NCBI GenBank assembly: GCA_029932675.1
Contig: JAOZPP010000038.1
Location: 1-27,411, forward strand
Origin: a bacterium
GTDB lineage: Bacteria; SM23-81; DAOVCL01
DNA: 27,411 bases
Direction: 5' to 3'
The notes below the pieces were generated by a model. The model was not told the origin of the DNA. It did no database searches and worked only from the letters and a program-made list of their open reading frames with translations. The position numbers and the translations under genes are program-made. Shown here one piece after another: positions 7,125 to 27,168 of the stretch. How positions within the stretch are numbered: position 1 is the first letter of the stretch; each line of letters opens with the position of its first letter.

Positions 7125-7634
7125 TTACCACTCCTCTATCACATAAAAGCCCTCCTCATCCCGCGGGAGCTCGGTTATCCCTGGATACTTCCTCTCCAGA
7201 TCGGTAAGAAGATGTGCCTGTCTCTTCACCGTTTGAAGGAGGTTCTGGTTTTCCTTCTTCAACCTATGGTGTTCTAAGGCCTGTCGCACAGTAACCCGCA
7301 ACTCCTCTGGATCCCAGGGCTTGGTGATGAACCTGTAGACTTCCCCCTCATTTATTGCCTTGATGGCTATTTCAGCATCCGCCTTACCCGTAAGGAGAAG
7401 TCTCATCGTATCCGGCTGGCGCTTCTTGAGGATATACAGAAACTCGATCCCACTCATTCCCGGCATACAGTTGTCCACCAACACCAGATCAACCTCCCCT
7501 TCGTCCAGCTTGGCTAAGGCCTCCTCGCTATTGGAGGCGGTGAAGATACGATACCTATCTGAGCGGAGGACCCTGACCAGGGAATTCCGCACCCCCTCCT
7601 CATCATCAACGATAAGTATGGTGTATTCTTCCAT
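7125..7634 (-). CDS. Stand-alone response regulator (REC only)
   Basis: A 169-residue receiver with no DNA-binding or enzyme domain. Acidic residues D10-D11, the phospho-acceptor D54 (LVLVDNCMPGMSG), the switch threonine in LLTG and the lysine in FITKPWD are all present. A helical tail follows, with ERKYPGITELPRDEEG near the end, a segment found at the C-terminus of some related regulators. The receiver is of the RpfG type and closely resembles those of the neighbouring REC-HD-GYP proteins, pointing to local duplication. A good ribosome binding site, AAGGAGG, lies about six bases before the ATG. It follows the REC-HD-GYP gene by 24 bp. A single-domain receiver could act as a phosphate sink, a shuttle or an allosteric partner of the adjacent HD-GYP proteins. 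Confidence 0.9.
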   Translation of the reverse strand: MEEYTILIVDDEEGVRNSLVRVLRSDRYRIFTASNSEEALAKLDEGEVDLVLVDNCMPGMSGIEFLYILKKRQPDTMRLLLTGKADAEIAIKAINEGEVYRFITKPWDPEELRVTVRQALEHHRLKKENQNLLQTVKRQAHLLTDLERKYPGITELPRDEEGFYVIEEW

Positions 7635-7658
7635 AATCGGCCTCCTTCACCCTTAATT

Positions 7659-8969
7659 CTAAACCTCCCCAGTTGCCTCAGGTTTATAGACATATACCCC
7701 ACCGACGATGGGGTCTATGCGATGATAATTGCGGATTTTGTCGATGTGTGCCTGTCTAATCACTTCATCCTTGGGGATGAGCAGAATACCCTTGGAGGTA
7801 TAGAGATCCCGGGCAAGGATCATCCCCTCCTCAAGCTGATCGAGGGCAATCCTGATCTCTACCCGTTCTGCCGCCTCTATCTCCTTAACCTCCAATAGTT
7901 CAAGGAAGATGTTCACCACTTCAGGGTCGAACTGCACCCCTCGACCTTTCTTGAGCCTCTCGATGACCTGAAACCGCGTGACCCTCTGAGTATATTTCCT
8001 CCTATTGAGCATAGTGTCATAGGCGTCCACTGCGGAGATGATGCGTGAGCCCAGGGGGATCCCATCCTCCTTTAGCCCGTCTGGATAGCCCGTTCCATCC
8101 CAGCTTTCATGATGGTGCCTGATCAATACCCCCACCTCCTGGAGGTTATCAATTATCTGAATGCTCGCCTGTCCAATTATCGGGTGTTGTTCGTAAACCC
8201 TCCTCTCCTCCTGGCCCATCTCCTCGTAGGATTTGGCCAAAACCTTATCCGATATCCCTATCTTCCCTATATCATGGAGGATAGCCGCTATCTCTACATC
8301 CAACACCTCCTTCTCGTCCAAGCCCCACTTCTCGGCTATGCTCCTGGAAAATGCGGCTACCCTCTTGGAATGGCTCCCAATATAGGAATCCCTCAGCTCG
8401 ACCAAGCTGGCAAAAACCCTGATGCTGTCCAAGAAGTTCTCCTCCAAGTCGGTATAGAGCTTGGACAGTTCCTCGTTCTTCCGCCTTATCTCCTTGGTCC
8501 GCTCCTGGACCTTCTTCTCCAGATCCCTGTTTAGCTCCTTCAGTTCCTCATTCTGTTTTCTGGTTAGCTCGTTCAGCCTCCTATTCTCCAAAACAAGGTC
8601 GCGTTGCTGCAAAGCCCTCTTTACTGTAAGTTTGAGGTCCTGATCATTCCAGGGTTTGGTGATGAACCGATAGACCTCCCCCTGGTTAATGGCGTCCATA
8701 GCCGCTTGCACATCGGCATAGCCGGTGAGGATGATCCTCACCGTATCCGGGGAGGTCTTCCTCACCTCCCGGAGGAACTCCACCCCACTCATTCCTGGCA
8801 TCCTCTGATCGGAGAGGATGAGGTCAACCTTGGTCTGGACAACCTTTTCTAAACCCTCCTTCCCACTGGAGGCCGTTAATAGGTTATATCCCTCTTTGCG
8901 GAATACCCTCTGCAGAGACCGTTGGATATTCTCCTCATCATCTACAAAGAGGAGGGTATGCTCTCCCAT
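7659..8969 (-). CDS. Response regulator with HD-GYP phosphodiesterase domain
   Basis: A 436-residue RpfG-like protein. The receiver (1-125) has D10-D11, phospho-acceptor D54 in LILSDQRMPGMSG and K105. A coiled coil follows (about 125-178), then an HD-GYP domain (about 180-365) with HD at 232-233 (AAILHDIGKIGIS), HHH at 285-287 and an intact GYP at 294-296. It should hydrolyse c-di-GMP to pGpG or GMP in the cytoplasm when phosphorylated. Residues 370-430 form an extra small domain (LEEGMILARDL and KGILLIPKDEVI) that resembles the whole of the separate 107-residue protein encoded at 9985-10308. No kinase is directly adjacent, so the phosphate donor is inferred to be one of the four hybrid or PAS kinases upstream. 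Confidence 0.93.
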   Translation of the reverse strand: MGEHTLLFVDDEENIQRSLQRVFRKEGYNLLTASSGKEGLEKVVQTKVDLILSDQRMPGMSGVEFLREVRKTSPDTVRIILTGYADVQAAMDAINQGEVYRFITKPWNDQDLKLTVKRALQQRDLVLENRRLNELTRKQNEELKELNRDLEKKVQERTKEIRRKNEELSKLYTDLEENFLDSIRVFASLVELRDSYIGSHSKRVAAFSRSIAEKWGLDEKEVLDVEIAAILHDIGKIGISDKVLAKSYEEMGQEERRVYEQHPIIGQASIQIIDNLQEVGVLIRHHHESWDGTGYPDGLKEDGIPLGSRIISAVDAYDTMLNRRKYTQRVTRFQVIERLKKGRGVQFDPEVVNIFLELLEVKEIEAAERVEIRIALDQLEEGMILARDLYTSKGILLIPKDEVIRQAHIDKIRNYHRIDPIVGGVYVYKPEATGEV

Positions 8970-9017
8970 AATGACCTTTCTTCCTGTTTAGCTGGGGCTA
9001 TTCATAAATCCAACCCA

Positions 9018-9075
9018 GGTGGCAGAACCCGATCCTGCCACCCTCCCTTTACCCTCAGAACCGAGGTGCTGAGGG
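9018..9075. repeat. Double-palindrome (REP-like) intergenic repeat, copy 1
   Basis: Two hairpins in tandem: GGTGGCAG/CTGCCACC (9018-9025 with 9035-9042) and CCCTCAG/CTGAGGG (9052-9058 with 9069-9075). The first arm and its AGAACCC loop side match the copies at 13983 and 14186. It lies in the 122-bp gap between the HDOD gene and the REC-HD-GYP gene, where it could affect mRNA stability or attenuate readthrough. Confidence 0.6.
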
Positions 9076-9091
9076 CCGCGGTAGAATTGAA

Positions 9092-9988
9092 TTAGGTATC
9101 GGTTTGGGCCACCTCACCTCCCCCCTCCTCTTCCTTAAACAGGGTGAGGAAGCTGCTTGACTTCTCCACCTCATCCCCGATCTCCCCCAACCACCCGGAG
9201 ATCGTCTTCAAGTCCAGTTTCAACCCTTCCCATATCCGCTTGTTTATCTCAGGGACAAAGTCATCACCGGAATGGCCAATTCCCATAGCCTTAACTAAGA
9301 CATCGGCTAAATGGCAAGCGGAGACAAGCTTCAGCTCAACTTCCGCAGAGGCGGGGTTGTGATGATAGGCGATGGTCTCCTCTAAGGGGGGAGGGAGGTT
9401 CCACCTTTGAGCTAAGCTTCTGCCCACCTCCGGGTGACCCATTCCCAAGACCTCCTCCTCAGCAACCAAGAAAGGGACCCCCCGCTCGTTAACGAGACGG
9501 AGGATCTTGACGAATTCTTCGTTAAGGAATTGCTCCAAGACCAATTTCCCGATATCATGAAGCAAACCACCTACGAATGCCTCCTCAGGGTCCTTAACCC
9601 CTAAATGCCTGCTAATTACCCGGGTGGCAGCTCCACAAGCAATTGAATGTTCCCAAAACCTGTATCTATCGAACCCCTCGGTCTGAGAATCATAGGAGAA
9701 ACTCTCGAAGACGGAGACGGAGAGGATCAGATTCTTGACGATGTTAAAGCCTAAGATGACTACAGCCTGGCTGATGGTGCTTATCTGACGCTGGCAGCCG
9801 TAGAAGGCGGAGTTCACTAAACGCAGGACCTTGGAGGCTATGGCCTGATCTTTGACAATAACCCTCCCCACATCTGCAGCAGAGATGTCCGGGTCCTGGA
9901 GCAGCTTGGTGGCCCTCTGGAGGACCGTTGGCAGAGTAGGCAGCCCGGCTATGCCGTCGATTATCCTCTTCATCACCTCTTCCTTCAT
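9092..9988 (-). CDS. HDOD-domain signalling protein
   Basis: A 298-residue protein whose main body (about 10-210) is an HDOD domain, a non-canonical relative of the HD phosphohydrolases common in c-di-GMP and chemotaxis networks. Seen: LPTLPTVLQRATKLLQDPD at the start, IVKDQAIASKVLRLVNSAFYG, ISQAVVILGFNIVKNLILS, and GGLLHDIGKLVLEQF. Most HDOD proteins have no shown enzymatic activity and act as adaptors, though this one keeps the HD pair. The C-terminal 90 residues are helical with no recognised domain. Its start overlaps the end of the preceding 107-residue gene by four bases (ATGA), so the two are translationally coupled. Confidence 0.9.
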   Translation of the reverse strand: MKEEVMKRIIDGIAGLPTLPTVLQRATKLLQDPDISAADVGRVIVKDQAIASKVLRLVNSAFYGCQRQISTISQAVVILGFNIVKNLILSVSVFESFSYDSQTEGFDRYRFWEHSIACGAATRVISRHLGVKDPEEAFVGGLLHDIGKLVLEQFLNEEFVKILRLVNERGVPFLVAEEEVLGMGHPEVGRSLAQRWNLPPPLEETIAYHHNPASAEVELKLVSACHLADVLVKAMGIGHSGDDFVPEINKRIWEGLKLDLKTISGWLGEIGDEVEKSSSFLTLFKEEEGGGEVAQTDT

Positions 9989-10308
9989 TCTCCCTCCCTC
10001 CTCACCAGATAGTCGAATATCCGATCCTTTAATCCCCCCATAAGCGGATCCTCAATCACCAATCGGAATCTTCTATCCAGATCCTCCTGGATCTTCTCCT
10101 TTGTCCTCTCTATCTCCTCGGGGCTGAGAGATCCCTCCTCCCCATCGCCTTTTACCCAGACCACATCCACATCCCTTTGGCAAAGCCGGGAGATCAACCC
10201 CTCATTTAAGGTAACCCCTTCGGCAACCAAGATCCTCCCGGCGATATCGGTGACGACCTTGGCCACTACCATCCCAGGCTGCAGTTCGGTTGTCCTCAAC
10301 CTTTTCAT
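9985..10308 (-). CDS. Small stand-alone domain resembling the accessory domain of HD-GYP proteins
   Basis: A 107-residue protein reading LQPGMVVAKVVTDIAGRILV and VTLNEGLISRLCQRDVDVVWV. This pattern (LxPGMxLAxDV, a glycine turn, then a hydrophobic strand and INERLIxRL helix) is the small domain often attached N- or C-terminally to HD-GYP proteins; a related segment forms the C-terminus of the protein at 7659-8969. Here it is encoded alone, with a charged helical tail. It overlaps the upstream REC-PAS gene and the downstream HDOD gene by four bases each (ATGA), so all three are probably made in fixed proportion and may form a complex. Its biochemical role is not known to me. Confidence 0.7.
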   Translation of the reverse strand: MKRLRTTELQPGMVVAKVVTDIAGRILVAEGVTLNEGLISRLCQRDVDVVWVKGDGEEGSLSPEEIERTKEKIQEDLDRRFRLVIEDPLMGGLKDRIFDYLVRREGE

Positions 10309-11126
10309 TCCTCGAAGGTGACTAAGATGGTCCCTTGGGTTCCCAGGCGGCCTTCAAAGGGGACACACTTGACCCGGAAAGGAGTAGCCCCAGAGGTTAA
10401 ATCCCTTAAATCCGTCGGTTGTTTTGTGTTCAACGTCCTCTTAACCAACTCGGCAAGGTTTTCGGGCAAGATCTCCTCAGCCTTAGATCCCAGGGCGTTT
10501 GCCCCGGCACCCTCGAAGAACTTGGGGGCGGCATCATTGAGAAAGACGATTGTCTCCTTCTCATCCGTTCCGATAACCCCTACCGGAAGGCGAGCCACGA
10601 TCTCCTGGGTGAGCATCAGTGCTCGGTTCCTGAGGAGTAACTCCCTGGTCCTTTCTTCGACTTTCTTCTCCAAATCCTCATTTAACATCTTCAGTTCCTC
10701 ATTCTGCCTTTTTATCTTCTCCACCAGCCTCTTGTTCTCCATCTGCAGTTCCCACTGCTCTAAGGCCCGCCTGATGATGGACTTTAGCTCCTCATCGTTC
10801 CAAGGCTTGAGGATGAACTGATAGATGTGTCCCTCGTTGATGGCCGCAGTTATGGCATTTACATCGGTATAGCCACTCAAGATAATCCTGATCGTATCCG
10901 GGTATAACTCCATCACCCTCTTTAGGAACTCCACCCCCTTCATACCCGGCATCCTTTGATCGGAGATGATCAGGTTCACCTCGCCTTTTTCCAGGATGTT
11001 TAAGCCCTCCTCGGCCGAGTTGGCCAGCAGGAGCTCGTAGTTCTCCTTTCTCAGCAAACGGCGAAGGGAATGAAGGATATTTACCTCATCATCTACGGCG
11101 AGAATTCTATATCTTTTCTCTCCCAT
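10305..11126 (-). CDS. Response regulator with C-terminal PAS domain (REC-coiled coil-PAS)
   Basis: A 273-residue protein. The receiver (1-127) has D12-D13, phospho-acceptor D56 in LIISDQRMPGMKG and the conserved lysine in FILKPWN. A long coiled coil (about 128-175) leads into a PAS domain (about 178-273) containing LPVGVIGTDEKETIVFLNDA, a typical PAS opening. There is no kinase, HD-GYP or DNA-binding domain, and the stop codon overlaps the next start, so the protein looks complete rather than truncated. It may sense a ligand through PAS and pass its state to the coupled downstream proteins. The REC and coiled coil closely resemble those of the 436-residue REC-HD-GYP, suggesting that a duplicated gene exchanged its output domain. 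Confidence 0.88.
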   Translation of the reverse strand: MGEKRYRILAVDDEVNILHSLRRLLRKENYELLLANSAEEGLNILEKGEVNLIISDQRMPGMKGVEFLKRVMELYPDTIRIILSGYTDVNAITAAINEGHIYQFILKPWNDEELKSIIRRALEQWELQMENKRLVEKIKRQNEELKMLNEDLEKKVEERTRELLLRNRALMLTQEIVARLPVGVIGTDEKETIVFLNDAAPKFFEGAGANALGSKAEEILPENLAELVKRTLNTKQPTDLRDLTSGATPFRVKCVPFEGRLGTQGTILVTFEE

Positions 11127-11159
11127 TTTGCCTAACCTCTAAGTTTCTTCTCTCCTTTT

Positions 11160-11185
11160 GCCGTCAGAATCGGGGTTCTGACGGC
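11160..11185. repeat. REP-like palindrome, copy 2 (single hairpin)
   Basis: GCCGTCAGAA and TTCTGACGGC form a perfect 10-bp stem around TCGGGG. The same palindrome, with one loop base different, occurs at 14226-14251. It sits between the REC-HD-GYP gene that ends at 11290 and the REC-PAS gene that starts at 11126. A second small hairpin, GGGGC-AAAA-GCCCC, lies in the same gap at about 11247-11260. Confidence 0.65.
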
Positions 11186-11289
11186 TCGGGAATTATTTTA
11201 TTCTCACCTTCTTCGACCAGAGCAATGAAAGGTATGTGGAGCGCCAGCGGGGCAAAAGCCCCTCTGGGGCGAGCGTAGCGAGCTAAGTT

Positions 11290-12252
11290 CTATTTGTTAT
11301 CCTCTAAGAACTCCAGGAAACTCTCCACTATCATTGGATCAAACTGTTTACCCTTCTCTTTGGAGAGAATGGCTACCGCCTCCTCAGGGGAGAGGGCCTT
11401 TCTATAAGGACGGTCGGAGGTCATCGCATCATAGGCATCAGCAACGGCTATAATCCTTGCCCCTAAGGGTATCTCCTCCCCAGCCTTGCCGTCTGGGTAT
11501 CCTGACCCATCCCAACGCTCGTGGTGGCTTCGGATTAGGGGGGCTATTCTGAGGAAGAAATTTGCCTGCTTAACCACGTTCTCTCCCATCTGAGAATGTT
11601 TCTTCACCTGTTCCCATTCCTGCGCGGTGAGCTCCCCAGCCTTATTTAGCACCTCCCTGTCTACGCCTATCTTTCCACAATCGTGGAGATAGCTGGCATA
11701 TTCCAGATATCTGATCTCCTCCTCAGGGAGGTTCAACCTGCGGGCAATCCCCAGCGCGTATTTTGCCACCCTATCGCAATGGCCCCTGGTATAAGGGTCT
11801 TTAAGCTCGACGGCCTCTGATAATGCCTTAACTGCTTGTAGGTTAGAGCTCTTTAGCGCTTCAACGAGTTTGGTAGTGGAATCGTATCTCTCAAGCGCCT
11901 GGCGAATGACCTCCTTGATCTCCCCCTCATTCCAGGGCTTGGTGATGAACCGAAAAACCTCCCCACTATTTATCGCTGCTATTGCTGCTTCAATGTCAGC
12001 ATATCCGGTGAGCATTATCCTCACGGTTTCCGGCCACCTCTCCTTCACCAAGCGTAAAAAATCCACTCCGCTCTTCCCTGGCATCCTTTGATCGGAGATG
12101 ACCAAAGCGACAGGAGTCGACTCCAGCTTTTCCAACCCCTCTTCGCCGTTGGAGGCCGTCAGAATGGTATAGCCTTCCTGGTGAAGCAGTCTTTTCAGGG
12201 AGTGCAAGACATTCTCTTCATCGTCTACTAAAAGTAGTGTAGGGGCCGGCAT
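11290..12252 (-). CDS. Response regulator with HD-GYP phosphodiesterase domain
   Basis: A 320-residue RpfG-like protein, shorter than the one at 7659-8969 because it lacks the long coiled coil and the C-terminal accessory domain. The receiver (1-125) has D10-D11 and phospho-acceptor D54 in LVISDQRMPGKSG. The HD-GYP domain (about 135-315) has HD at 190-191 (SYLHDCGKIGV), the HH pair at 243-244 and GYP at 251-253 (HHERWDGSGYPDG), all intact. It should degrade c-di-GMP under phosphorylation control. A ribosome binding site AGGAGAAG precedes the ATG by about seven bases. It is the first minus-strand gene downstream of the divergent DUF4143 ATPase, and its promoter is not evident to me. Confidence 0.93.
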   Translation of the reverse strand: MPAPTLLLVDDEENVLHSLKRLLHQEGYTILTASNGEEGLEKLESTPVALVISDQRMPGKSGVDFLRLVKERWPETVRIMLTGYADIEAAIAAINSGEVFRFITKPWNEGEIKEVIRQALERYDSTTKLVEALKSSNLQAVKALSEAVELKDPYTRGHCDRVAKYALGIARRLNLPEEEIRYLEYASYLHDCGKIGVDREVLNKAGELTAQEWEQVKKHSQMGENVVKQANFFLRIAPLIRSHHERWDGSGYPDGKAGEEIPLGARIIAVADAYDAMTSDRPYRKALSPEEAVAILSKEKGKQFDPMIVESFLEFLEDNK

Positions 12253-14267: not shown

Positions 14268-16103
14268 TTAACCTGGGGTTTCCCCTTCCCTTGCCGCCCT
14301 CAGCGGGAGTTCTATGGTAAAGGTCGTTCCCTTGCCCACCTGGCTCTGCACATCTATCTTCCCCCCATGCTTCTTGATGATCCCATAGCTCATCGATAAC
14401 CCCAACCCAGTCCCCTTCCCTACCTCCTTCGTGGTGAAAAATGGCTCAAAGATCCGAGAAAGATTCTCCTTGGGGATGCCTACCCCTGTATCGCTTATCT
14501 GCACATATACCCGCCCCCCATCACTATAGGTCCTGATCCTTATCTGCCCCCTCTCCTCTATCGCCTGGGCAGCATTAACCAACAGGTTCATAAATACCTG
14601 ATTCAACTGCTGAGGATAACACTCTATATCCGGTAGCTCACCATACTCCTTGACCACCTCCGCCTTATACTTCAGCTCATTCCACACTATGTTCAAAGTG
14701 CTCTCTATCCCCTCATTGATGTTCGCATACTTCAACTCCGCCTCATCCACATGGGCAAAGCTCTTCAAATCCTTCACTATCTTGGTAATCCTCTCCGCCC
14801 CCTCCAAGGACTCGCTGATTGCATCCTTGATGTCCTCCAACAACAGATCCACATCCAACTCCTCCTTCACCCTCTCCACCCTTTGGGCCAAGGAGAGCAG
14901 TTCCTCATCCCCCTTGCTCTTGCAAACAGAAAGAAGCTCCTCATACTCCTTGAGGATCTTGATGAAGTCCTCGGTGTATTCCTGGAGGCTGTTCAGGTTG
15001 GAGAAGACAAAGCCCGCTGGGTTGTTTATCTCGTGGGCGATGCCAGCGGCCAACTGGCCAATGGAGGCCAACTTCTCCCTCTGCAACAGTTGGGCATGCG
15101 CTTCCTTAAGCTCCTTGTTCACCCTCTTCAGCTCCGCATTCCCCTTCTTCAAGGCCCTCTCTGCTCTTTCTGCCCGCTCCTTTGCCTCGGTCAATCTCCT
15201 CTCCGCCTTCTTGCGCTCAGTGATGTCCCGCACAATGAGCACCCTGAATGACGTTAGTTCCTCGCTTCTCGAACGCTTGCAGGGCTTGAGCTCGATGGAG
15301 AGGTAACGTTTGAGGAACTGATCATAGGCTTCGCATCGGGCGGACTGACCTCGGATTGTCCTCTTCCACGCCTTCTCCCAGAAGGATTTCAGATAACAGG
15401 AGGCATCCCCGCACTTAGGATGGAGGAGCCCGTGAACCACCCTACCCTTCACATTCTCAATTTGCCCTAAGCTCCAGGCCTCGACAGTGCGATTTGCCCG
15501 CACAATAGTCCCTCCACCGTCAACCAGACAGACAAGGTCGGGAAGCGAATCGGCCGCTGATTCCCACTCCTGCTTTGCCTGCTCTACCTTTCTCCAAAGC
15601 GTAATCAGCTCCTCCTCCACCCGCTTCCGCTCGGTGATGTCCCGCACGATGACGCATAGGTTCCCCACTTGGCCATCTTTCTCTATCAAACGAGTGTTGG
15701 CTTCTACATAGAGCTTATTGCCGCTCTTATGATTGACCTCCAACTCCACGATTTGTGGCCTCCGCTGCTGGAGCACCGTCTTCATAAGTTCGACCACCTT
15801 GAGGAGCTCATCTTCCTCAAAGAAGCCAAGTTCGGCGAAATTCCTCCCAATGACCTCCTCCCGCTTGTAGCCAAGGACATCCTCTATCCTCCCATTTACA
15901 TCGATGATCACCCCCGACCTATCCAGGTAGATGATCTCATCATTAGCATTCTCAAATATCGTCCTATACTTTGCCTCGCTCTCCCTCAACGCCTCCACTA
16001 CCTCCCGGTGGCTGTTTTGCAGTGCCTCCAACTGGCCAACCCGGCGACGCAATTGTGCCAGCTCGGCAAGGAGCTCCTGTTTTGTCTTTCGGTTATCTTC
16101 CAT
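14268..16103 (-). CDS. PAS-PAS sensor histidine kinase
   Basis: A 611-residue cytoplasmic sensor kinase with no membrane segment seen. After an N-terminal coiled coil come PAS 1 (about 40-160, ending in DITERKR) and PAS 2 (about 180-300) that contains HPKCGDASC, a cysteine pattern of unknown meaning. A second coiled coil leads to the dimerisation domain with H357 in GIAHEINNPAGF. The ATPase domain has NQVFMNLLVNAA, DTGVGIP and [11 protein letters not shown]. It should autophosphorylate and pass phosphate to separate receivers. Residues from about 322 to the end of the core are identical to those of the neighbouring REC-kinase at 16216-17529. It lies 112 bp downstream of that gene and probably shares its transcript. 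A weak GAGAGAAG ribosome binding site abuts the ATG. Confidence 0.93.
   Translation of the reverse strand: MEDNRKTKQELLAELAQLRRRVGQLEALQNSHREVVEALRESEAKYRTIFENANDEIIYLDRSGVIIDVNGRIEDVLGYKREEVIGRNFAELGFFEEDELLKVVELMKTVLQQRRPQIVELEVNHKSGNKLYVEANTRLIEKDGQVGNLCVIVRDITERKRVEEELITLWRKVEQAKQEWESAADSLPDLVCLVDGGGTIVRANRTVEAWSLGQIENVKGRVVHGLLHPKCGDASCYLKSFWEKAWKRTIRGQSARCEAYDQFLKRYLSIELKPCKRSRSEELTSFRVLIVRDITERKKAERRLTEAKERAERAERALKKGNAELKRVNKELKEAHAQLLQREKLASIGQLAAGIAHEINNPAGFVFSNLNSLQEYTEDFIKILKEYEELLSVCKSKGDEELLSLAQRVERVKEELDVDLLLEDIKDAISESLEGAERITKIVKDLKSFAHVDEAELKYANINEGIESTLNIVWNELKYKAEVVKEYGELPDIECYPQQLNQVFMNLLVNAAQAIEERGQIRIRTYSDGGRVYVQISDTGVGIPKENLSRIFEPFFTTKEVGKGTGLGLSMSYGIIKKHGGKIDVQSQVGKGTTFTIELPLRAAREGETPG
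14305..15141 (-). repeat. 837-bp duplicated kinase module, copy A
   Basis: Matches 16259-17095 at a constant offset of 1954. All parts I compared base by base are identical, and the translation is identical in the coding frame and on the opposite strand. It covers the linker coiled coil, HisKA and HATPase domains. Confidence 0.9.
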
Positions 16104-16215: not shown

Positions 16216-17529
16216 CTACTCCGCCAGTTGCTCCCCCTCACCCCTCTCTAATTTAAGGGGGAGTTCTATGGTAAAGGTCGTTCCCTTGCCCACCTGGCTC
16301 TGCACATCTATCTTCCCCCCATGCTTCTTGATGATCCCATAGCTCATCGATAACCCCAACCCAGTCCCCTTCCCTACCTCCTTCGTGGTGAAAAATGGCT
16401 CAAAGATCCGAGAAAGATTCTCCTTGGGGATGCCTACCCCTGTATCGCTTATCTGCACATATACCCGCCCCCCATCACTATAGGTCCTGATCCTTATCTG
16501 CCCCCTCTCCTCTATCGCCTGGGCAGCATTAACCAACAGGTTCATAAATACCTGATTCAACTGCTGAGGATAACACTCTATATCCGGTAGCTCACCATAC
16601 TCCTTGACCACCTCCGCCTTATACTTCAGCTCATTCCACACTATGTTCAAAGTGCTCTCTATCCCCTCATTGATGTTCGCATACTTCAACTCCGCCTCAT
16701 CCACATGGGCAAAGCTCTTCAAATCCTTCACTATCTTGGTAATCCTCTCCGCCCCCTCCAAGGACTCGCTGATTGCATCCTTGATGTCCTCCAACAACAG
16801 ATCCACATCCAACTCCTCCTTCACCCTCTCCACCCTTTGGGCCAAGGAGAGCAGTTCCTCATCCCCCTTGCTCTTGCAAACAGAAAGAAGCTCCTCATAC
16901 TCCTTGAGGATCTTGATGAAGTCCTCGGTGTATTCCTGGAGGCTGTTCAGGTTGGAGAAGACAAAGCCCGCTGGGTTGTTTATCTCGTGGGCGATGCCAG
17001 CGGCCAACTGGCCAATGGAGGCCAACTTCTCCCTCTGCAACAGTTGGGCATGCGCTTCCTTAAGCTCCTTGTTCACCCTCTTCAGCTCCGCATTCTTCTT
17101 CTCCAAGCTCTTCCTTATCGCGTTGAGCTGCAGATGGGTTTTTACCCTTACCCTCACCTCCTCGTTATCGATCGGTTTGGTAATGTAATCTACCGCACCG
17201 AGCTCGAAGCCCTTCTCCCTCATCCCACTTTCATTCACCGCGGTGATGAATATGACTGGAACCTCCTCAGTCCTCTTTTCCTCCCTCATCCTCTTGAGCA
17301 CCTCCAGTCCACTCATCTCCGGCATCATAACATCAAGCAAGACGAGATCGATGGATTCCTTCTCCAGCAGATTGAGAGCCTGCTTACCGTTCTCCGCGCT
17401 TAGTGTGGTGTAGCCACATTTGCCCAGCAACTTCTCCAGGAGCATCCTATTTATGGGGACATCATCCACTATAAGGATTTTCGCTCCCCTCCCCTCTTCA
17501 CCTCTCAGCTCTTCTCTCTTCATCTTCAA
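16216..17529 (-). CDS. Receiver-histidine kinase (REC-HisKA-HATPase)
   Basis: A 437-residue protein with an N-terminal receiver (about 15-135; D22-D23, phospho-acceptor D66 in LVLLDVMMPEMSG, K118 in YITKPID), a coiled coil, then HisKA with H181 in GIAHEINNPAGF and an HATPase domain with DTGVGIP and [11 protein letters not shown]. Having the receiver first means that an upstream kinase can set the activity of this one, giving a two-step relay. It has no other sensor domain. From about residue 146 the kinase core is identical to that of the PAS-PAS kinase downstream. A sigma-28 promoter lies at 17628-17654, giving a leader of about 90 bases. A good ribosome binding site, GGGAGGGA, precedes the ATG. 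Confidence 0.93.
   Translation of the reverse strand: MKMKREELRGEEGRGAKILIVDDVPINRMLLEKLLGKCGYTTLSAENGKQALNLLEKESIDLVLLDVMMPEMSGLEVLKRMREEKRTEEVPVIFITAVNESGMREKGFELGAVDYITKPIDNEEVRVRVKTHLQLNAIRKSLEKKNAELKRVNKELKEAHAQLLQREKLASIGQLAAGIAHEINNPAGFVFSNLNSLQEYTEDFIKILKEYEELLSVCKSKGDEELLSLAQRVERVKEELDVDLLLEDIKDAISESLEGAERITKIVKDLKSFAHVDEAELKYANINEGIESTLNIVWNELKYKAEVVKEYGELPDIECYPQQLNQVFMNLLVNAAQAIEERGQIRIRTYSDGGRVYVQISDTGVGIPKENLSRIFEPFFTTKEVGKGTGLGLSMSYGIIKKHGGKIDVQSQVGKGTTFTIELPLKLERGEGEQLAE
16259..17095 (-). repeat. 837-bp duplicated kinase module, copy B
   Basis: Partner of 14305-15141 at offset 1954, with sharp edges: on one side the match ends at a GGG before the differing C-terminal tails, on the other inside the coiled coil directly after CCGCATTC. 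Confidence 0.9.
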
Positions 17530-17718: not shown

Positions 17719-20700
17719 CTATCGCAGGGCCTGCAAGTAATCCCTCAACTGTAGTCTCTCCTTCTCCAACTCCTCGATTAGCGCTGGCGCCTTAGCCAGG
17801 TTGCCATCTTTACCCATATACTCAAGGTCGCGGGCCAAGTTTGTCATCCTCTCCGCAGTAAGGTTAGCTGCTGCCCCTTTGATACTGTGGGCCTCCCTCT
17901 CCACCCTCTGCGCATCCCCTGCCTCCACCGCCTGGGCTAACTCCTTGAGCTGCTCCTGGGTGTAGTCCACAAACTCCTGGAGCATATCGACTAAGAATTC
18001 CTTGTCCCCATCCAATCTGGCCAAGGCGGCATCCAGTTCGATGGGGGGCACCAACCCACTTCCCCCAGCGGGAATTTTCTTCTCCTTCTGCATACTTCCT
18101 CCTTTCTTTGGCCCCTTAGGCCTATTCCATCTCTCTATGGCCGCAAAAAGCTCCTTTTGGTTTATGGGTTTAGAGACATAGTCGTCCATCCCCGCTTCCA
18201 AGCAGCGTTCCTTGTCCCCCTTCATAGCATGGGCGGTCATCGCGATTATCGGTATCCTCCTTTTTTTCTTCATCTTCGATTCTAAATCCCTAATCTGTCG
18301 GGTAGCGGCTAACCCATCGAGTTCTGGCATCTGCACATCCATAAGCACAAGATCGTAACTTCCCCTCTGTAAAGCCTCTATGGCCTGCTTGCCATTCTCC
18401 ACGGCATCAACCGGATACCCAGCCTTCTCCAAAACCTTGATGGCCAACTTGCGGTTGACCGGGTTATCTTCAGCCAAAAGTATCCTCGCCCTCCGCCGTT
18501 TCTGCTCAGCGAGGCTATGGCGAGTGACTATGCTGCCCCGCTTACCCTTAGTATGTTTCCTCCCTAAGACAGTGACTATGGCGTCAAACAACTGGGACTG
18601 CTTTATGGGCTTCATCAGGTATCCACTGCATCCGATGGCCTCCAACCGGGCAGCATCACCCCTTACCCCAAAGGAGGTGAGGACGAGGATAAGCACATCC
18701 TTGATCTGGACATCCCCTTTAATTGCCTTAGCCGTCTGCTCACCATCCATCTGGGGCATCTGCATATCGAGGAGAACAAGCTTGAATGGCCGGCCGGAGT
18801 TGGCTGCATTCCGCAGAGCCTCAATTGCCCTTCTCCCATCCCCTACCGCCTGGGGCTTGCACCCGAAGGATTCCAACATCCTCACCAAGACCGCCCGGTT
18901 GGTGGCGTTGTCATCGACCACCAAAACGGGCAAACCCCTCACCTCTACATCCTCAATTGGCTCCTCGAGGCTCCCCTCGGGTTGCCTCTCGAATACGGCG
19001 GTGAACCAGAACCTGCTCCCCTTCCCTGGTTTGCTCTCCACCCCTATCTCCCCACCCATCAGCCCAGCCAACTGCTTGGAGATGGCCAAACCCAACCCTG
19101 TACCCCCATACTTGCGGGTAGTGGAACCATCGGCCTGGGAGAAGCTCTCAAATATCTTCTCCTGCTTATCCTTAGGAATACCTATACCCGTATCCTTCAC
19201 CGCAAAAAGCAACTTTACCTTATCCTCCTCGACTTTCGGCTTGCGGCTTGCGGCTTGCGCCCCTCCCTCGGCCCTCTTTACCTCCACCACCACCTCCCCC
19301 TTCTCGGTGAACTTAATGGCATTGCCCAACAGGTTCACCAGGATCTGCCGGAGCCTCCCGGGGTCACCCCGCAGCCTGGTGGGAATTCCAGGCTCGATGT
19401 CCAAGGCCAATTCCAACCCCTTCCCAGCAGCTCGGGCGGCAACGGTCTCCACCGTCCCCTCCAAGGTGGTCTGGAGGTCGAAGTCTATCTTCTCCATCTC
19501 CAGCTTGCCCGCCTCGATCTTGGAGAAGTCCAGGATATCGTTGATCAGGCAAAGCAGGGCATTGGCGCTTTCCTTAACCGTGTTCAGGTAATCCCTCTGT
19601 TCCTCAGTAAGCTCTGTATCCAGGGCTAAATCGGTCATCCCAATGATCCCGTTCATTGGGGTGCGGATCTCGTGGGACATATTGGCCAGAAACTGCGACT
19701 TGGCCACATTGGCCTCCTCGGCTGCCCGTCGGGCCTTCTCCAATTCAGTGACCAAAGCCGAGAGCCTGGCGCTATTCTCCTCCTCAGCTTCCTTGGCCAG
19801 TTGAAGCTCCTCTATGAACTTCTGTCTCTCCTCCTCCATCCTCTTCCGTTTGGAGATGTCTATAATCTGAACCTCAATTACCCCTCTTCCCTGGTATTCC
19901 GTCAACCTCCCCCTGATGATCGCATAGAGCCAATTCCGCTTCTTGTTCCACATTGGGAGCTCACATTCACAGAAGGGGCCAGCTCCAAGGTGGCTCATCG
20001 TCTCCTTCACCTTACCCCTCACCTCTGGGGGGAAGAGGTTCTCTACAAAATCAAATTCCCTGGTTAACATCTCCTCGAGAGAGTAGCCAAACAGCTCCAG
20101 GGCTGCCTTGTTTGCATATCTCACCTTACCCTTCTCCAGGATCAAATAGGCCACTACAGAGTTCTCCACCAAGGAACGATACCTCTCCTCTGACTGTCTG
20201 AGGATATCGTCCATCAGTTTGCGCTCGGTGATGTCTTTTTCCACCCCGCGATAGCCAAGGAGGTTTCCTCCTCCATCCAGCTTTGGAACCCCGTTGGTAA
20301 GCAGGCAGACCCTATGGCCGCCCTTGTGGACTTTCCAACTTTCCAGATCCTTAATGGGCTGTTTGTGTTTGGCTATCTCCCGGATGTGCTTTCTCACCCT
20401 TGCTGCCTCATCCTCCGGCATAAAATCGAAGGGGGTCTTCCCGATGAGCTCCTCCGGACGATAACCGAGGATACCCTCCACCTGGGGAGAGCAATAGGTG
20501 AATACCCCTTTTGCATCCACCTCCCAAACCCAATCAGACATACTGAAGACTATATCCCGGAACCTCTCCTCGGAGGCCTTCAGCTCCTCCTCCCACCGTT
20601 TCCGTTCGGTTATGTCCTCTCCCGAGCTTAAGGTGCCGGCGAACCGACCGTAATCATCCTCTAAAACAGTATTTTGCCAGGCGATGAGCCTCTCCTGGCC

Positions 20701-21507
20701 ATCTTTAGTCAAAATCGGGTTTTCAAAATATCTTACCGCTTCAATCTCTCCCCCTCGCAGCTTTTCAAATATCGCCTCCGCCTTATCCCGGATCTTAGGG
20801 GGGAGGAAGTTTTCAAACCAGTCCCTGCCCAAGATCTCATCTTCGCTGTAACCCAAGATCTTACAACCCTTTTGGTTTATTAAACTAACCTTTTTGTCCG
20901 CATCAATGGCTAACAGGATAACTCCGGCCACATCCAGGTATTTCTGAGCCCTATCCCTCTCCCTCCCCAAGGCCTCCTCAGCCTTCCTCCGTTCGTTGAT
21001 CTCCCTTTCCAAGGAGGCATTGAGGGATCTAAGCCGATCGTTATTCTCCTTTAGGGCTTTGGTGGCCAACGCTGCCTCTTTTAGGGACTGACGCAACTCC
21101 TCCTGACTGGTCAAGAAGTCAACCAGGTGATCCCCCTCGGGGAAATCGTCAAAGGAGAAATGGGCCATCTCCTCAGTGGTCTTTGGACCAGGGCTCCCCA
21201 AGAACACGAACCCTCCACCGGAAGGGAGCCAACGGCCGGTTAAAGGGAGCGCTGCCCCCATAGCCTGGAGGGTAAACTTACCGCAGATACCGATCTTGGC
21301 AGCTATGGAGGCAGCGGAGATTTCCCCCTCGGGATCTGCGTATTTAACCAATTTGGCTGCACCCAGGCCAACCACCCCCTTAACCCGCTTGTGAATCGCT
21401 GGGCTGGCATAGGTTACCACCAGGTCTCGGTTGGTAGCCAGGACGAAGGGGGTAAGACAGATCAGGTGGGCGAGGTCGACCTTCGCCTTGCTTTCTCCCC
21501 GGCTCAT
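17719..21507 (-). CDS. HNOBA-PAS-hybrid histidine kinase with two receivers and Hpt (H-NOX partner)
   Basis: A 1262-residue phosphorelay kinase. Residues about 10-135 resemble the HNOBA domain that accompanies H-NOX in guanylyl cyclases and bacterial kinases: [20 protein letters not shown], then LTGRW, then [20 protein letters not shown]. Next come a coiled coil, three PAS domains (about 185-305, 310-430 and 438-555), HisKA with H612 in [11 protein letters not shown], an HATPase with DTGIGIP and [10 protein letters not shown], two receivers ([13 protein letters not shown] and [13 protein letters not shown]) and an Hpt with [11 protein letters not shown]. The layout is BarA-like. The start is set at 21507: GGAGGTGA stands seven bases upstream and the ATG overlaps the H-NOX stop by four bases (ATGA). 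A longer in-frame start at 21630 would lie inside the H-NOX gene. Kinase and H-NOX are thus translationally coupled, and H-NOX probably regulates this kinase. Confidence 0.92.
19237..19257. repeat. Three tandem copies of a 7-bp unit inside the kinase gene
   Basis: CGGCTTG is repeated three times without interruption, encoding the AASRKPK-type linker in the HATPase region of the hybrid kinase. A unit of seven bases changes the reading frame if copy number changes by one. Confidence 0.7.
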
Positions 21508-22046
21508 GGGAAGGTCACCTCCATGGTGCAGCGCGGATCCCCTCTGTGCATACAGGCGGTTTCCTTCACTCGCACTTCCTGGTTGAAGTAGAGCCCCACA
21601 CCTAAGATAAGGCCGCGCAGGACTGGGCAAAGCCCCCGCTTGGAATGGTAGTGCATAAGCAGCCGGCCATCAGGAAGTTCCTCGTAGTCGAATTTAGGGG
21701 GGGCTGCCCCGGTAATGCTCCTGGTAGCCTGTTCATGGACCCGATCCATATTGAGCAAGAACTCCCGCGGGGATGACCCAGCCAGTTGGAAATAGGTGGC
21801 ATAGTATTTCTTGAGGGTGTGGGGGACCATAAACTTGCCATACTCCACCTGGACGGTCTCCACTGGAAGTCCAGAGACCTGGGAGGCTGCCTTGATCAGG
21901 GCTATGGTGAGCTCGTCTGGATAGTCTTGACCGATGGCAAAGAATGGTTCCTCGCAGCCAGCTAAGGACTTCACCTCCTCCCACGCCTCCGCGCCAAACC
22001 TCGCCTCCACCATCTCCTGAATACCCTTGTTGATAATGCCCTTCAT
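21504..22046 (-). CDS. hnoX: H-NOX heme nitric-oxide sensor protein
   Basis: A 180-residue stand-alone H-NOX (HNOB) domain, the bacterial relative of the heme domain of soluble guanylyl cyclase. It opens [18 protein letters not shown]. The proximal heme ligand is H104 (MDRVHEQA), the heme-distorting proline is at 116-117 (GAAPPKF), and the heme-propionate motif YxSxR is Y133-H-S-K-R137. The position matching the distal tyrosine of oxygen-binding H-NOX is V142, so NO rather than O2 should be the ligand. Cysteines C140, C165 and C173 sit where zinc-binding cysteines occur in some relatives. A strong GGAGGTGA ribosome binding site precedes the ATG. It follows the channel gene by 59 bp and overlaps the HNOBA kinase by four bases, the standard partner arrangement. 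Confidence 0.95.
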
Positions 22047-22105: not shown

Positions 22106-23536
22106 CTACGGGCTTCTCTCTTCCTGGCTTTGTAGCATGTCTACCGGGACTCCATCTCTGTTGTTGAGTAGGTTCTCCTCCTCATTGAGGATGCGGATGA
22201 CCGCTTCAATTAACTGAGATGATTCGGCGGTCTTAGTGATGAACTCATCTGCACCCGCCTCTAAGGCCCGCCTGCGCGTTTCCGGATGTTCGTCGCTGGT
22301 AAAGAGGATCAATTTGGTATGGGAATTTCGTGGATCCTCCCTCACCCGGCGGCAAATCTCGATGCCAGAGAGGACAGGAAGCATAAAGTCGATCACTGCG
22401 GCATCGGGCTTCTCCTCCTTGATCCTATTCAGGGCATTGGCCCCATCTGCAGCCTTTAAGGGGATAAACCCTGCCCTGGCCAAGAGGCGGGAATAGAGGC
22501 TGAGGATGACGGGGTTGTCATCCACGATGAGAACCCGCTTTGGTTTCTTCTCCTGGGCAAGGCCCTCCTCCTTTAATTCACCCTGACTCTCCAAAATTAG
22601 CAGGGAATCGTTGCAATTGAGCCGCTCCTCTTTGCTCGGACATAACCAGTCCCTATTCCCCCGCCGCAACCCAATGACCTCTTGCCCCATCTCCCGGGAG
22701 ACCTCCTCGATGGTCTGTCCCACCATACTCGATCCCTCCCTGACAGTTATCCACCGCGGCGCAACAGCAGGAGAAGGGGATAGAACCTCCTTCACTTTCA
22801 ACTTTCCAGTAGCAATGAGGAGCTCATTGGCAAATTCCCTTCCTGCTGTGGCAAACAGGGAGATAACCTTATCTGCTCCAGCGCGCAGGAGCTTCTTCTC
22901 CGAGGTGGCCTCCACTGCCCTGGCGATTATGTGAAGGGTGGGATTGAGTTCCCTGGCAGTTAGGGTGATGAAGAGGTTCTCTGGATCCGAGCCGGCAAGG
23001 GCAAGAAGGCCGGCGGCGGTCTTGATGTTTGCTTTGAGGAGTATCTCCTCATCGGTGCAATTTCCTTGGATAACCAGGAACCCCCTTTCCCTCAACCTCT
23101 CCACCTGTTCTGAATCCGCCTCTACCCCGACGAATTTGGCCCCTGCCCGGGAGAAGCTCTCCGCGGCAACAGAACCAACCCGTCCACAGCCACAGATAAT
23201 ACAATGCGCTCTTAGTTGGGAGATCTGTTTCTGCATCTTCCTCTCCTCCGACATACTGGTCACCACCTTTTCGAAGACGAACCTCGCTATGGTGCTGGCC
23301 GAAAAGGCCAAGGTGGCAAATCCGCCCAAGATGAGGATACAAGAGAATATTCGGCCTGTATCGGAGAGCGGCTTTACCTCCCCATATCCCACGGTGCTGA
23401 CCGTGATGATGGTCATATAGAATGCCTGGAGAAGGCTATAGCCCTCCAGAAGCACATATCCCACCGTCCCCCCAAAGATTACCAGTAGCGCCACTAAGCC
23501 ACAGAGGGTAATCCGCTTATCAAGGCGAAGATGCAT
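22106..23536 (-). CDS. Two-TM potassium channel with RCK domains and a fused C-terminal receiver
   Basis: A 476-residue protein counted from MHLRLDKR, chosen over an upstream GTG at 23564-23566 because GGAGAG stands five bases before it. Order: TM1 (about 10-30), pore helix and selectivity filter TVGYGE (48-53), TM2 (about 63-85), an RCK/TrkA-N Rossmann domain with GCGRVG (116-121), an RCK/TrkA-C domain (about 250-325), then a complete response-regulator receiver (about 334-455). The receiver has D339-D340, phospho-acceptor D383 (AAVIDFMLPVLSG), a threonine switch in LFTSD and the lysine in FITKTA. The first part is a standard MthK-like channel gated by cytoplasmic ligands. The receiver is continuous with it in one frame. 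Phosphorylation probably gates or assembles the channel. It lies between the six-PAS hybrid kinase and H-NOX genes, same strand. Confidence 0.92.
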   Translation of the reverse strand: MHLRLDKRITLCGLVALLVIFGGTVGYVLLEGYSLLQAFYMTIITVSTVGYGEVKPLSDTGRIFSCILILGGFATLAFSASTIARFVFEKVVTSMSEERKMQKQISQLRAHCIICGCGRVGSVAAESFSRAGAKFVGVEADSEQVERLRERGFLVIQGNCTDEEILLKANIKTAAGLLALAGSDPENLFITLTARELNPTLHIIARAVEATSEKKLLRAGADKVISLFATAGREFANELLIATGKLKVKEVLSPSPAVAPRWITVREGSSMVGQTIEEVSREMGQEVIGLRRGNRDWLCPSKEERLNCNDSLLILESQGELKEEGLAQEKKPKRVLIVDDNPVILSLYSRLLARAGFIPLKAADGANALNRIKEEKPDAAVIDFMLPVLSGIEICRRVREDPRNSHTKLILFTSDEHPETRRRALEAGADEFITKTAESSQLIEAVIRILNEEENLLNNRDGVPVDMLQSQEERSP

Positions 23537-23667: not shown

Positions 23668-26600
23668 CTATCCATCGAGCACCTCCCGCACCTTATGGGA
23701 TATCTCCTCCATAGAAAATGGTTTGTGCAGAAAGCCCTTCACTCCCAGATCCAGAATCCGCTGGGCAGCCGTGTTTTTCGAGTACCCACTGGCCAGCAGT
23801 GCCTTTACCTGCGGATCAATCCGCTTCAGTTCTTGGAAGGTCTCCCTCCCCCCCATCTTAGGCATCATCATATCAACAATCACCAAGTCTATCTCATCCC
23901 TGTGTTTACGATATAGCTCCACTGCCTCCTCTCCATCGGAGGCCAACCTCACCCTGTATCCCAGATCCTCCAATATATCCTTCATCAGATCGCGGAGCAT
24001 CTGCTCATCATCGACCACAAGAATGGATTCACTCCCTATGGTCACCCTTTCCTCCCTCCGCTTAGGCTGGATAGGGAAGCCTTGGGAGAGGGGTAAGTAA
24101 ACTTCAAATGTGGTCCCTTTCCCCACTTCACTGTAGACGGAGAGGTAACCACCGTGGTTCTTGACGATTCCATAGACCATTGAAAGTCCCAAACCTGTTC
24201 CCTCCCCCTGCCCCTTAGTAGTGAAGAAGGGATCGAATATCTTGGTTTTGGTCTCCTCATTCATCCCCACACCTGTATCGGATACCGTAATACAGACATA
24301 ATCCCCTGGGACAGCTCCCAAGTGTTCGGAAGCAAATCTCTCATCCAGATGGACAAGTCGAGAGCCAATGGATAGCTCTCCACCATCCGGCATTGCGTCC
24401 CGGGCATTGACGCAGAGGTTCATCAAGACCTGCTCTAATTGATTGGGATCTCCCTTGGTGAGAGGATTCTCCCCACACAAGTTCATCTCGATCTCTATCC
24501 GCTTGTCTATGGATGCGGAGAGCAACTCCACCACCCCGCCGATTAGTTGGTTAATGTCTACAGGCTTCTCCTCATATTTGCCCTGACGGGCGAAACCAAG
24601 CAACCTATTGGTCAGTTCGGCCGCCCTATTACTCGCGCTCTCGATGAGTTCCACATACTTGCGATTGGGATCAGTGGGGGCCAGTTTATTCAAAAGCAAT
24701 GAGGAATAGCCGAGGATGCCACCAAGGAGGTTGTTGAAATCATGGGCGATCCCTCCAGCAAGAGTCCCTACCGCCTCCATCTTTTGGGCGTGGCGCAGTT
24801 GTGCCTCTAACTTAACCCTCTCCTCCTCTGCCCGTTTGCGTTCAGTGATGTCACGACTTAGCCCGCTAAAGCCGATTATCTTGCCCTCCTCGTCTCTGAT
24901 GGGTTGGCTTCTTGTCGCCACCCAGACGATCTCACCACTCCGTTTTACCAACCGATATTCCGCATCTACGTCAACTCCTACGATGCCCTCTATGGGTTCT
25001 CCATTGAGCACTCGTCGCATACCCCCCCATAACAGAGGTATATCATCCTGGTGTACAAACTCCGTAAAGTTGTGCCCTATCGCCTCCTCTGGTTCACACC
25101 CGATGAACTGCTTGGTTACCGAATTGGCGAAGAGGATTTTCCCCTGTGGGTCAACCGTGAAGACGAGATCGCCTATCGTGTTGACCAGGTTCCGATATTT
25201 CTCCTTGCTCTCCTTTAATGCCCTTTCCGCCCGCTTCCGTTCGGTTACATCCCGGAAACTCCACACCCTCCCCACCGTCTCTTCCCCTATCTTCTGAGGT
25301 TGGGAATAGCGCTCAAAGATGCGACCATCCTTTAATTCCAACTCGTCATAGCTCTCCGCATCGGGTTGATCATACAACTCCTTTACCTTGGCAAGAAAGC
25401 TCTCTGGATCTTTCAACTGAGTTACGGCATATGCCAGCGCCTCTTCATCATCACCCGAGGCGAGAATGGAATCGGGAACGCCCCACATATCCACAAACTT
25501 CTGATTAAATCCTGCCCATCTCCCGTTTCTGTCTACAACAAGGATACCATCCGCAGTGGATTCCAGCGTTGCCCGCAACAGGGAGAGGGATTCCTCTAAG
25601 GCCTTCTCCGCCTGTTTCCGTTCGGTAATATCGCGGGCAATTCCGCAGAGTCCAATGATATCGCCTGAGCTGTTCCGCATTGGCACTTTAATGACATGGA
25701 AGGTGGTAAGAGCACCATTCACCGGTTTGGTATGTTCCTCCTCGATGATCTCACCATTTAGTACACGATGATCCACCTCCGTGATGTGTGCTGCCGCCCC
25801 CTGCCCGAAGAGGTCCTCATCCCTCATCCCGATCAGCTTTGCGGCCGGGAGCCCAAAGAGTTTCTCCATGGCCGGGTTGACCTGGGTGTATCTCAAATCG
25901 CGATCCTTGATGAAGATGGAATCCTGCGCCGTCTCGAAGATGGTGCGGAACCGCTCCTCGCTCGCCCGCAGGGCCTCCTCCATCCTCCGGTGTTCGGTTA
26001 TATCACGGCTCACCCCCACCAAGCCAATAACTTCCCCTTTATCGTTGAACACCGGAGATTTGATGGTATCGAAATAGACCCTCTCGCCCCTCTGGTTGTT
26101 TACGGCCTCTCCAACTTTGATGGTCTCCCGCCTCTTGAAGACGAGCTCATCGCTCCTTCTACACGCCTCAGCCAACTCCGGGGGGAACAACTCGGCGTCC
26201 GTCCTGCCGAGGATCTCCTCCCTCTTCAAGCCCACTAACTTCTCAAATGCCTTGTTTATCAGAAGGTTTCGGCCATTGACGTCCTTGAAATAGATGACAT
26301 CGGAGACCGCCTCCAGTAAGGTACTGAGGCGATTGGTCGTCGCGCGGAGCTCCTCTTCGGCCCTTTTTCGCTCGGTGATGTCCCTCTGGACTGAGACCGA
26401 ATACTTGAGCCCCCCACGGTCCTCCCTCACGGCACCAGCGCTGAGGAGCACCGTGCGCCTCTCCCCCCCTTTGGTGATGATTGTCATCTCCTCATCATGT
26501 AGCTTCCCGGTCCTCTTCCAAATGGAGAAAAGCTCCTCCATCTTCCTCTGCGATTCAGGGGCATAGATCTGATTCAAGGGTTTACCGACGAGATCTCTCT

Positions 26601-27168
26601 TTCTATAGCCCAAGGCCCGGAGGGCTGACCTATTCACATCAAGCACTATTCCTTCAGGGGAGATCATATAGCAGTATTCAGGATCGTTTTCAAAGAACTC
26701 CCTAAACCGCTCCTCGCTCTCCTGGAGAGCCTCTTCTGCCCGCTTGCGCTTGGTGATTTCCAGAGTTATCTCCACCGCACCCATCATCCCCCCATCAACC
26801 CCCCTCACCGCAAACCCTTTGATGAGCCAAGGCCTCCCATCAGGAGTAACTTTCTCTATCTTCTGGGGCTCCCCGGTCTGCATAGCTTTTATCACCGGAC
26901 AATCCGGACAGGGACTATTTCGTCTGGGCCACACCTCGTAGCAGCGGCGACCGATAAGCTCCTTCCGCTTTACGCCAACCGATTCGCAGGCCGCCCGATT
27001 CGCCCAGAGGACCCTCATCTCCCGATCCTGGTAGACAACATGCTCAATCAAGTTGTCCAGAATGGACACCCCCCACCCCCCTCCACTGATTAACTCCCTC
27101 ACTACCCCCATAATCCCTGCCTCCGGCTCGGAAACTGGTTGAGGCAAACTCGATGGCTCTTCACTCAT
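23668..27168 (-). CDS. Six-PAS hybrid histidine kinase with C-terminal receiver
   Basis: A 1166-residue soluble sensor kinase with no membrane segment. Six PAS domains follow one another (roughly residues 30-145, 147-270, 272-395, 398-520, 522-650 and 652-785), most ending in [10 protein letters not shown]. The first carries SPCPDCPV, a cysteine pair seen in some PAS domains that may bind metal or sense redox; this is uncertain. HisKA has the phosphorylated histidine in [13 protein letters not shown]. HATPase has DTGVGM and [11 protein letters not shown]. The receiver has the acceptor aspartate in [13 protein letters not shown] and the lysine in FLHKPFS. It is the first gene of the run leading to the channel, H-NOX and HNOBA kinase, and has a sigma-28 promoter about 210 bases upstream. 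A ribosome binding site, GAGGAG, lies just before the ATG. Confidence 0.93.

Follow-up and report, generated by a model that had tools for sequence, protein, structure and literature searches.

Can an ion channel be the direct target of a bacterial phosphorelay? The outputs of bacterial two-component systems are mostly transcription, second messengers or motility. A gene in the window (the whole stretch of 27,411 nucleotides analysed here) raises the question, since it couples a K+ channel to a response regulator receiver in a single chain. An earlier note on this DNA had described an uninterrupted frame comprising a TVGYGE pore, RCK-N and RCK-C domains and a complete receiver, a description with which the frame, the Pfam matches and the receiver residues agree. 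The note gave no strand; its coordinates hold, and it is on the minus strand that the interval forms a single open frame, while the plus-strand translation is riddled with stops (Table 1).

Table 1. Positions of the channel gene, its encoded domains and sites, and the neighbouring signalling genes in the window
Feature	Position	Strand	Remark
Channel-RCK-REC gene	22106..23536	minus	476 aa, ATG at 23536
TM1, residues 5-31	23444..23524	minus	AlphaFold2 helix H5-31 and Ion_trans_2
Selectivity filter TVGYGE, residues 48-53	23378..23395	minus	T48, G50, G52 and E53 invariant in 13 fusions
TM2, residues 59-90	23267..23362	minus	First part of AlphaFold2 helix H59-106
GGAGGAG, Shine-Dalgarno-like, 6 nt ahead of codon 101	23243..23249	minus	
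Internal ATG, Met101, candidate second start for soluble RCK-REC	23234..23236	minus	Invariant; near MthK Met107 position
RCK-N / TrkA_N, residues 111-242, GxGxxG motif	22811..23206	minus	Pfam and AlphaFold2
RCK-C / TrkA_C, residues 258-318	22583..22765	minus	Weak Pfam match and modelled fold
Receiver (REC), residues 333-455	22172..22540	minus	Pfam and complete (beta-alpha)5 fold in model
Phosphoacceptor Asp383	22388..22390	minus	Invariant in 13/13
Stand-alone H-NOX protein (haem NO-binding)	21504..22046	minus	HNOB 5.5e-46; PDB match Alr2278 H-NOX 3e-30
H-NOX-associated hybrid kinase	17719..21507	minus	HNOBA-like, PAS x3, HisKA, HATPase, REC, REC, HPt
C-terminal HPt of H-NOX-associated kinase	17725..17988	minus	4.5e-15
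Multi-PAS hybrid kinase with REC, upstream of channel gene	23668..27168	minus	Pfam

Pfam recognizes Ion_trans_2 (6e-17), TrkA_N (3.6e-36) and Response_reg (5.9e-25) in the window protein. The TrkA_C match is weak (4e-5, 23.8 bits against a cut-off of 27 bits), yet RCK-C is present, as its fold in the AlphaFold2 model and the alignment to MthK indicate. The model, which was computed from an input alignment of 58 sequences and reaches a mean pLDDT of 90, is uninformative on gating and shows, in order, TM1, the pore helix, the long helix of TM2, RCK-N and a small RCK-C, followed by a linker and the complete receiver. The linker of about 14 residues (approximately 319-333) is modelled with low confidence, variable and poorly conserved (identity 0.11). 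With a TxG(Y/F)G-filter pore plus RCK-N and RCK-C in one chain, the protein is by architecture an RCK-gated 2-TM K+ channel, the K+ selectivity of which is suggested by the filter; the GxGxxG motif of the RCK domain is kept in the fusion alignment. A Foldseek search with the model returned GsuK as the best match and MthK among the first matches, and among the matches listed there was neither a solved structure nor an NCBIfam model above cut-off that combines channel and receiver.

The Ca2+-gated K+ channel MthK is the closest solved channel with a single RCK domain. It shares with the window protein the 2-TM pore and the single RCK per subunit, and its internal start lies within two codons of the aligned candidate start of the window protein, whereas the C-terminal receiver is found on the window protein only. 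The residues D184/E210/E212 of the MthK Ca2+ site are replaced by A181/R206/V208 in the window; among the 13 fusions described below, the first position is Ala, Ile, Leu or Val, Arg206 is invariant and the third position varies. MthK-type calcium gating was therefore rejected. The Geobacter channel GsuK, which carries tandem RCK domains and is sensitive to NAD and ADP, likewise combines a 2-TM pore with a GxGxxG RCK, but has two RCKs per subunit and lacks a receiver.

How widespread is the fusion? A search of 386 genomes from many phyla yielded a channel homologue in 146 and a full-length fusion in at least three, including the window's own genome. Follow-up searches by phylum found the fusion in at least 2 of 52, at least 1 of 7, at least 3 of 40, at least 6 of 395 and 0 of 398 genomes; in the larger searches the best four candidates per genome were scored, and the counts are lower bounds. 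In a phylum represented by two genomes no fusion was found, and a plasmid collection contained unfused channels only. Overall, roughly 1,350 genomes were searched, of which at least about 1% carry the fusion. Together with the window protein, 12 full-length homologues (41-52% identical to it) make 13 fusions from five phylum groups. In a tree built by a quick method from channel residues, with the receiver columns removed, the 13 form a single clade (SH-aLRT 100) separate from 45 unfused channels, which were picked as high-scoring matches, so that receiver-losing members of the fused lineage could be missed. The simplest reading is a single old fusion event, inherited or transferred and often lost, and the family appears to be rare and ancient, occurring in at least five phyla. 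The idea that the fusion is common to near relatives was rejected, as a search at 1e-25 gave no match in the other three genomes from the phylum of the window. Among 12 long-open-frame regions around other channels, channel-RCK was readable in six, none of which contained a receiver. A Geothermincola candidate (L028), which tblastn suggested to be a fusion, is actually a channel plus a separate REC gene: in this MAG (L028:4236-6318) an RCK channel without fusion precedes a REC protein, a possible split counterpart, in which what looks like a stretch of HisKA type was apparent by eye, with no ATPase domain.

The same domain order in 12 homologues excludes a frameshift between RCK-C and receiver, a concern raised in the earlier note, and we consider the architecture and the family as real with near certainty. 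The genome searches indicated that the architecture is not common, and no paper on, or characterization of, a receiver-fused K+ channel was found in the open-licence literature. The individual domains are all known; what would be new with respect to that literature is that K+ channel subunits contain a receiver as one of their conserved parts.

The receiver itself has kept its catalytic residues. The residues D339, D340, N341, D383, T413 and K435 are invariant in 13/13 fusions, which thus all possess the acidic pair, the phosphoacceptor Asp, the Thr/Ser and the Lys of a response regulator receiver. Receivers of the CheY, PhoB and PleD type have the same fold and catalytic residues; the differences here are the fused partner, an ion channel, and the Pro following the catalytic Lys, which is replaced by Thr, Ser or Gly in all 13. 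This Pro is typical for receivers though not essential, and the K-P to K-T/S/G change may indicate an unusual phospho-state geometry. Mean pairwise identity among the fusions is 0.53 for the receiver, 0.55 for RCK-N and 0.36 for RCK-C; within the receiver it amounts to 0.66 for beta1, 0.66 for alpha1, the docking helix for kinases and HPt domains, and 0.32 for alpha5. The fusion receivers form a tight set, scoring 175-202 bits with their own profile compared to at most 80 bits for other receivers in the DNA searched, although a profile built from the 13 themselves inflates their scores.

Phosphorelay components accompany the channel in several homologues. Two fusions from different phylum groups (L084 and L095) carry a C-terminal HPt domain after the receiver (3.8e-13 and 1.1e-9) with the motifs HTLKG and HQIKG, respectively. 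In a third locus (L092) a same-strand run of hybrid kinase, HPt and REC-GGDEF genes leads to the channel gene after a gap of about 20 nt. With the two HPt fusions and this gene run, the link to a phosphorelay is a recurrent one that does not depend on the window. In 9 of the 13 fusions, neither an adjoining kinase or HPt gene nor an HPt domain within the protein was recognized among neighbours inspected mostly by eye and partly scanned.

Taken together, these data favour, with a probability of roughly 60%, a phosphorelay-modulated, MthK-like RCK K+ channel, the behaviour of which would be altered by phosphorylation. This reading is supported by the single-clade family, the intact receiver residues and the HPt/kinase linkage in homologues, as well as by a receiver that is better conserved than RCK-C and has an alpha1 helix as conserved as the catalytic strand. 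It is weakened by the nine fusions with no recognized adjoining kinase or HPt and by the replacement of Pro after the receiver Lys. In mechanistic terms, translation from the gene start would produce a membrane subunit and translation from codon 101 an RCK-REC subunit that is soluble. An octameric RCK ring could be assembled from four copies of either kind, with as many as eight receivers attached by flexible linkers, through which a histidine-kinase/HPt phosphorelay would set or bias opening. Phosphorylation of Asp383 might alter the pairing of the receivers or their pressure on the ring, and thereby shift K+ conductance. The phospho-input would add to whatever nucleotide sensing RCK provides, such that the ring could read nucleotides through RCK and the kinase state through REC. 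We infer octamer assembly and phospho-gating; judging from sequence, phosphorylation might either open or close the pore.

Which kinase might feed this channel? As the earlier note had claimed, the channel stands beside an H-NOX phosphorelay: the channel gene lies between the multi-PAS hybrid kinase and the strongly matching H-NOX gene, followed by the REC-REC-HPt kinase, all on the minus strand. The HNOBA match in the latter kinase (3e-4) is slightly under the cut-off. The candidate haem-ligand His of H-NOX aligns with that of Alr2278, the YxSxR motif is present as YHSKR, and together with the adjoining HNOBA-like kinase this agrees with the make-up of an H-NOX NO-sensing phosphorelay. O2-binding H-NOX proteins have a Tyr in the segment following YxSxR; no Tyr occurs in the segment right after YHSKR, and the ligand is likely NO rather than O2. 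A consensus scan, which says little, found no promoter-like site in the channel region.

From gene order, the H-NOX kinase with its HPt may be the nearest candidate phosphodonor, although that the H-NOX system serves as donor to the channel in this genome is a tentative proposal, somewhat on the doubtful side. At about even odds, the channel is instead regulated by a different phosphorelay, the H-NOX pair serving another regulator of the kinase-rich cluster and its adjacency being incidental, an explanation compatible with a phosphorelay-gated channel. The input from the flanking kinases suggested by the earlier note has to be divided. Phosphorelay input to the channel gains from the invariant receiver site, the two HPt fusions and the L092 run, while NO or redox input has synteny in this genome on its side, and no H-NOX gene was seen beside the channel in the 12 homologues (neighbours inspected mostly by eye). 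Incidental adjacency is further favoured by three genomes of the same phylum without an H-NOX match and by several further kinases and receivers in the window cluster. The compact arrangement on one strand speaks against it, with 59 nt between channel and H-NOX and a kinase ATG overlapping the H-NOX stop by 4 nt, as does the HPt at the end of the H-NOX-associated kinase; in known relays, a separate receiver obtains its phosphate from the HPt. In H-NOX/hybrid-kinase/HPt phosphorelays such as the NO quorum-sensing circuit of Vibrio (PMC6759604), a stand-alone H-NOX similarly lies beside an HNOBA-like hybrid kinase. In the portions of the literature on such circuits that we covered no channel target was found, whereas the channel link here is one of gene order.

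Alternatively, the receiver might not gate the pore at all and instead serve for dimerization, for docking or as a sink for phosphate, localizing the channel or its soluble RCK subunit to a signalling cluster, with RCK still sensing nucleotides or ions as usual. The low-confidence, poorly conserved linker weakens the case for receiver-ring contact and fits such a role, as do the altered K-P motif and the scarcity of recognized adjoining kinases. Yet every phosphotransfer residue has been kept across deep divergence, the docking helix is well conserved and two members have an HPt fused, and we regard a non-gating receiver as unlikely.

The second subunit of the proposed ring depends on the candidate internal start. 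Met101 occurs in 13/13 fusions, 12 codons ahead of the RCK glycine motif, and by our reading of the alignment MthK Met107 lies two residues from it; the window has a second start candidate, Met95, behind AAGGTGGTGA (-12.8). At the codon-101 position, 39 of 47 unfused channels have a start codon (28 ATG, 7 GTG, 4 TTG), the flanking codons seldom being any of these, and Val at this position is encoded by GTG in 7/7 cases (background 0.34, p 5e-4). Pairing with the anti-Shine-Dalgarno sequence was compared to upstream codons resampled synonymously from the same gene in 200 draws. Mean energy at the unfused start-codon sites is -8.01 versus -4.20 (sd 0.38) and in the 13 fusions -6.28 versus -3.98 (sd 0.60), with 0/200 draws as low in either set; these statistics, like those on start codons, ignore relatedness, the unfused rows stemming mostly from different families and phyla. 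At 80 control internal ATGs the energy shows no difference from that of the resampled codons, and two fusions (from G353 and G428) show a weak Shine-Dalgarno-like signal. Start-codon choice and the strength of anti-Shine-Dalgarno pairing thus exceed synonymous expectation, which points to selection on the nucleotide signal and fits a second translation start. An internal start at codon 101 producing a soluble RCK-REC subunit is, in our judgement, quite probable. An internal start codon with a strong Shine-Dalgarno-like signal before RCK is general in MthK-like channels of many phyla (L009-L070, 47 unfused), and as a codon-selected feature it appears to be independent of the receiver.

According to PMC2920069, the internal start Met107 of MthK yields soluble RCK, it is disputed whether E. 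coli Kch uses a second, soluble product of its gene to build the ring, and removal of a putative internal start left Kch expression and function unchanged (Kuo 2003, cited therein). The Kch result weakens the internal-start part of our reading, and the codon-level signal across many phyla bears on whether bacterial RCK rings use a second soluble product. The strong conserved start signal also fits the soluble RCK-REC being a true response regulator apart from the pore, for instance as a free subunit with phosphorylation-set ring assembly; this seems improbable, as the signal is stronger in unfused channels, where MthK-type ring assembly fits, and no sign of a separate partner was found. That two genes were wrongly joined by annotation or assembly, in a draft of 116 contigs, is practically ruled out by the same fusion in 12 other genomes forming one clade.

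The existence of this rare family suggests that in some bacteria the target of a phosphorelay may be an ion channel itself. If this is true, a receiver on a K+ channel connects kinases directly to membrane potential. Slightly short of even odds, we would go further and propose a class of response regulators with ion-channel output, in which a phosphorelay, here possibly driven by NO, directly gates a K+ pore by way of eight receivers on a mixed ring of membrane-bound and free RCK-REC subunits, so that bacteria would obtain kinase-driven, transcription-free control of membrane potential.

Several minor observations concern the window and related loci. By eye, window positions 7125-12252 appear to be a dense signalling cluster, in which successive receiver proteins, HD-type motifs being present in some, are accompanied by an HDOD-like protein on the minus strand. 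Positions 14305-15141 and 16259-17095, in two neighbouring kinase genes, are exactly identical over 837 bp, owing to either a very recent duplication, gene conversion or an assembly repeat. A few genes from the channel at another locus (L058:14139-18047), a 1302-aa protein begins like a receiver and continues as a long body that is acidic and rich in repeats. The fusion homologue of G461 (L083:990-2420) has no in-frame ATG, GTG or TTG before codon 24, reflecting either an unusual start codon or a sequence error. Finally, a Spirochaetaceae MAG (L030:8001-9395) encodes a channel-RCK protein that carries a hemerythrin domain (PF01814, 4.4e-16) at its C-terminus, a further case of a sensor fused to an RCK channel.
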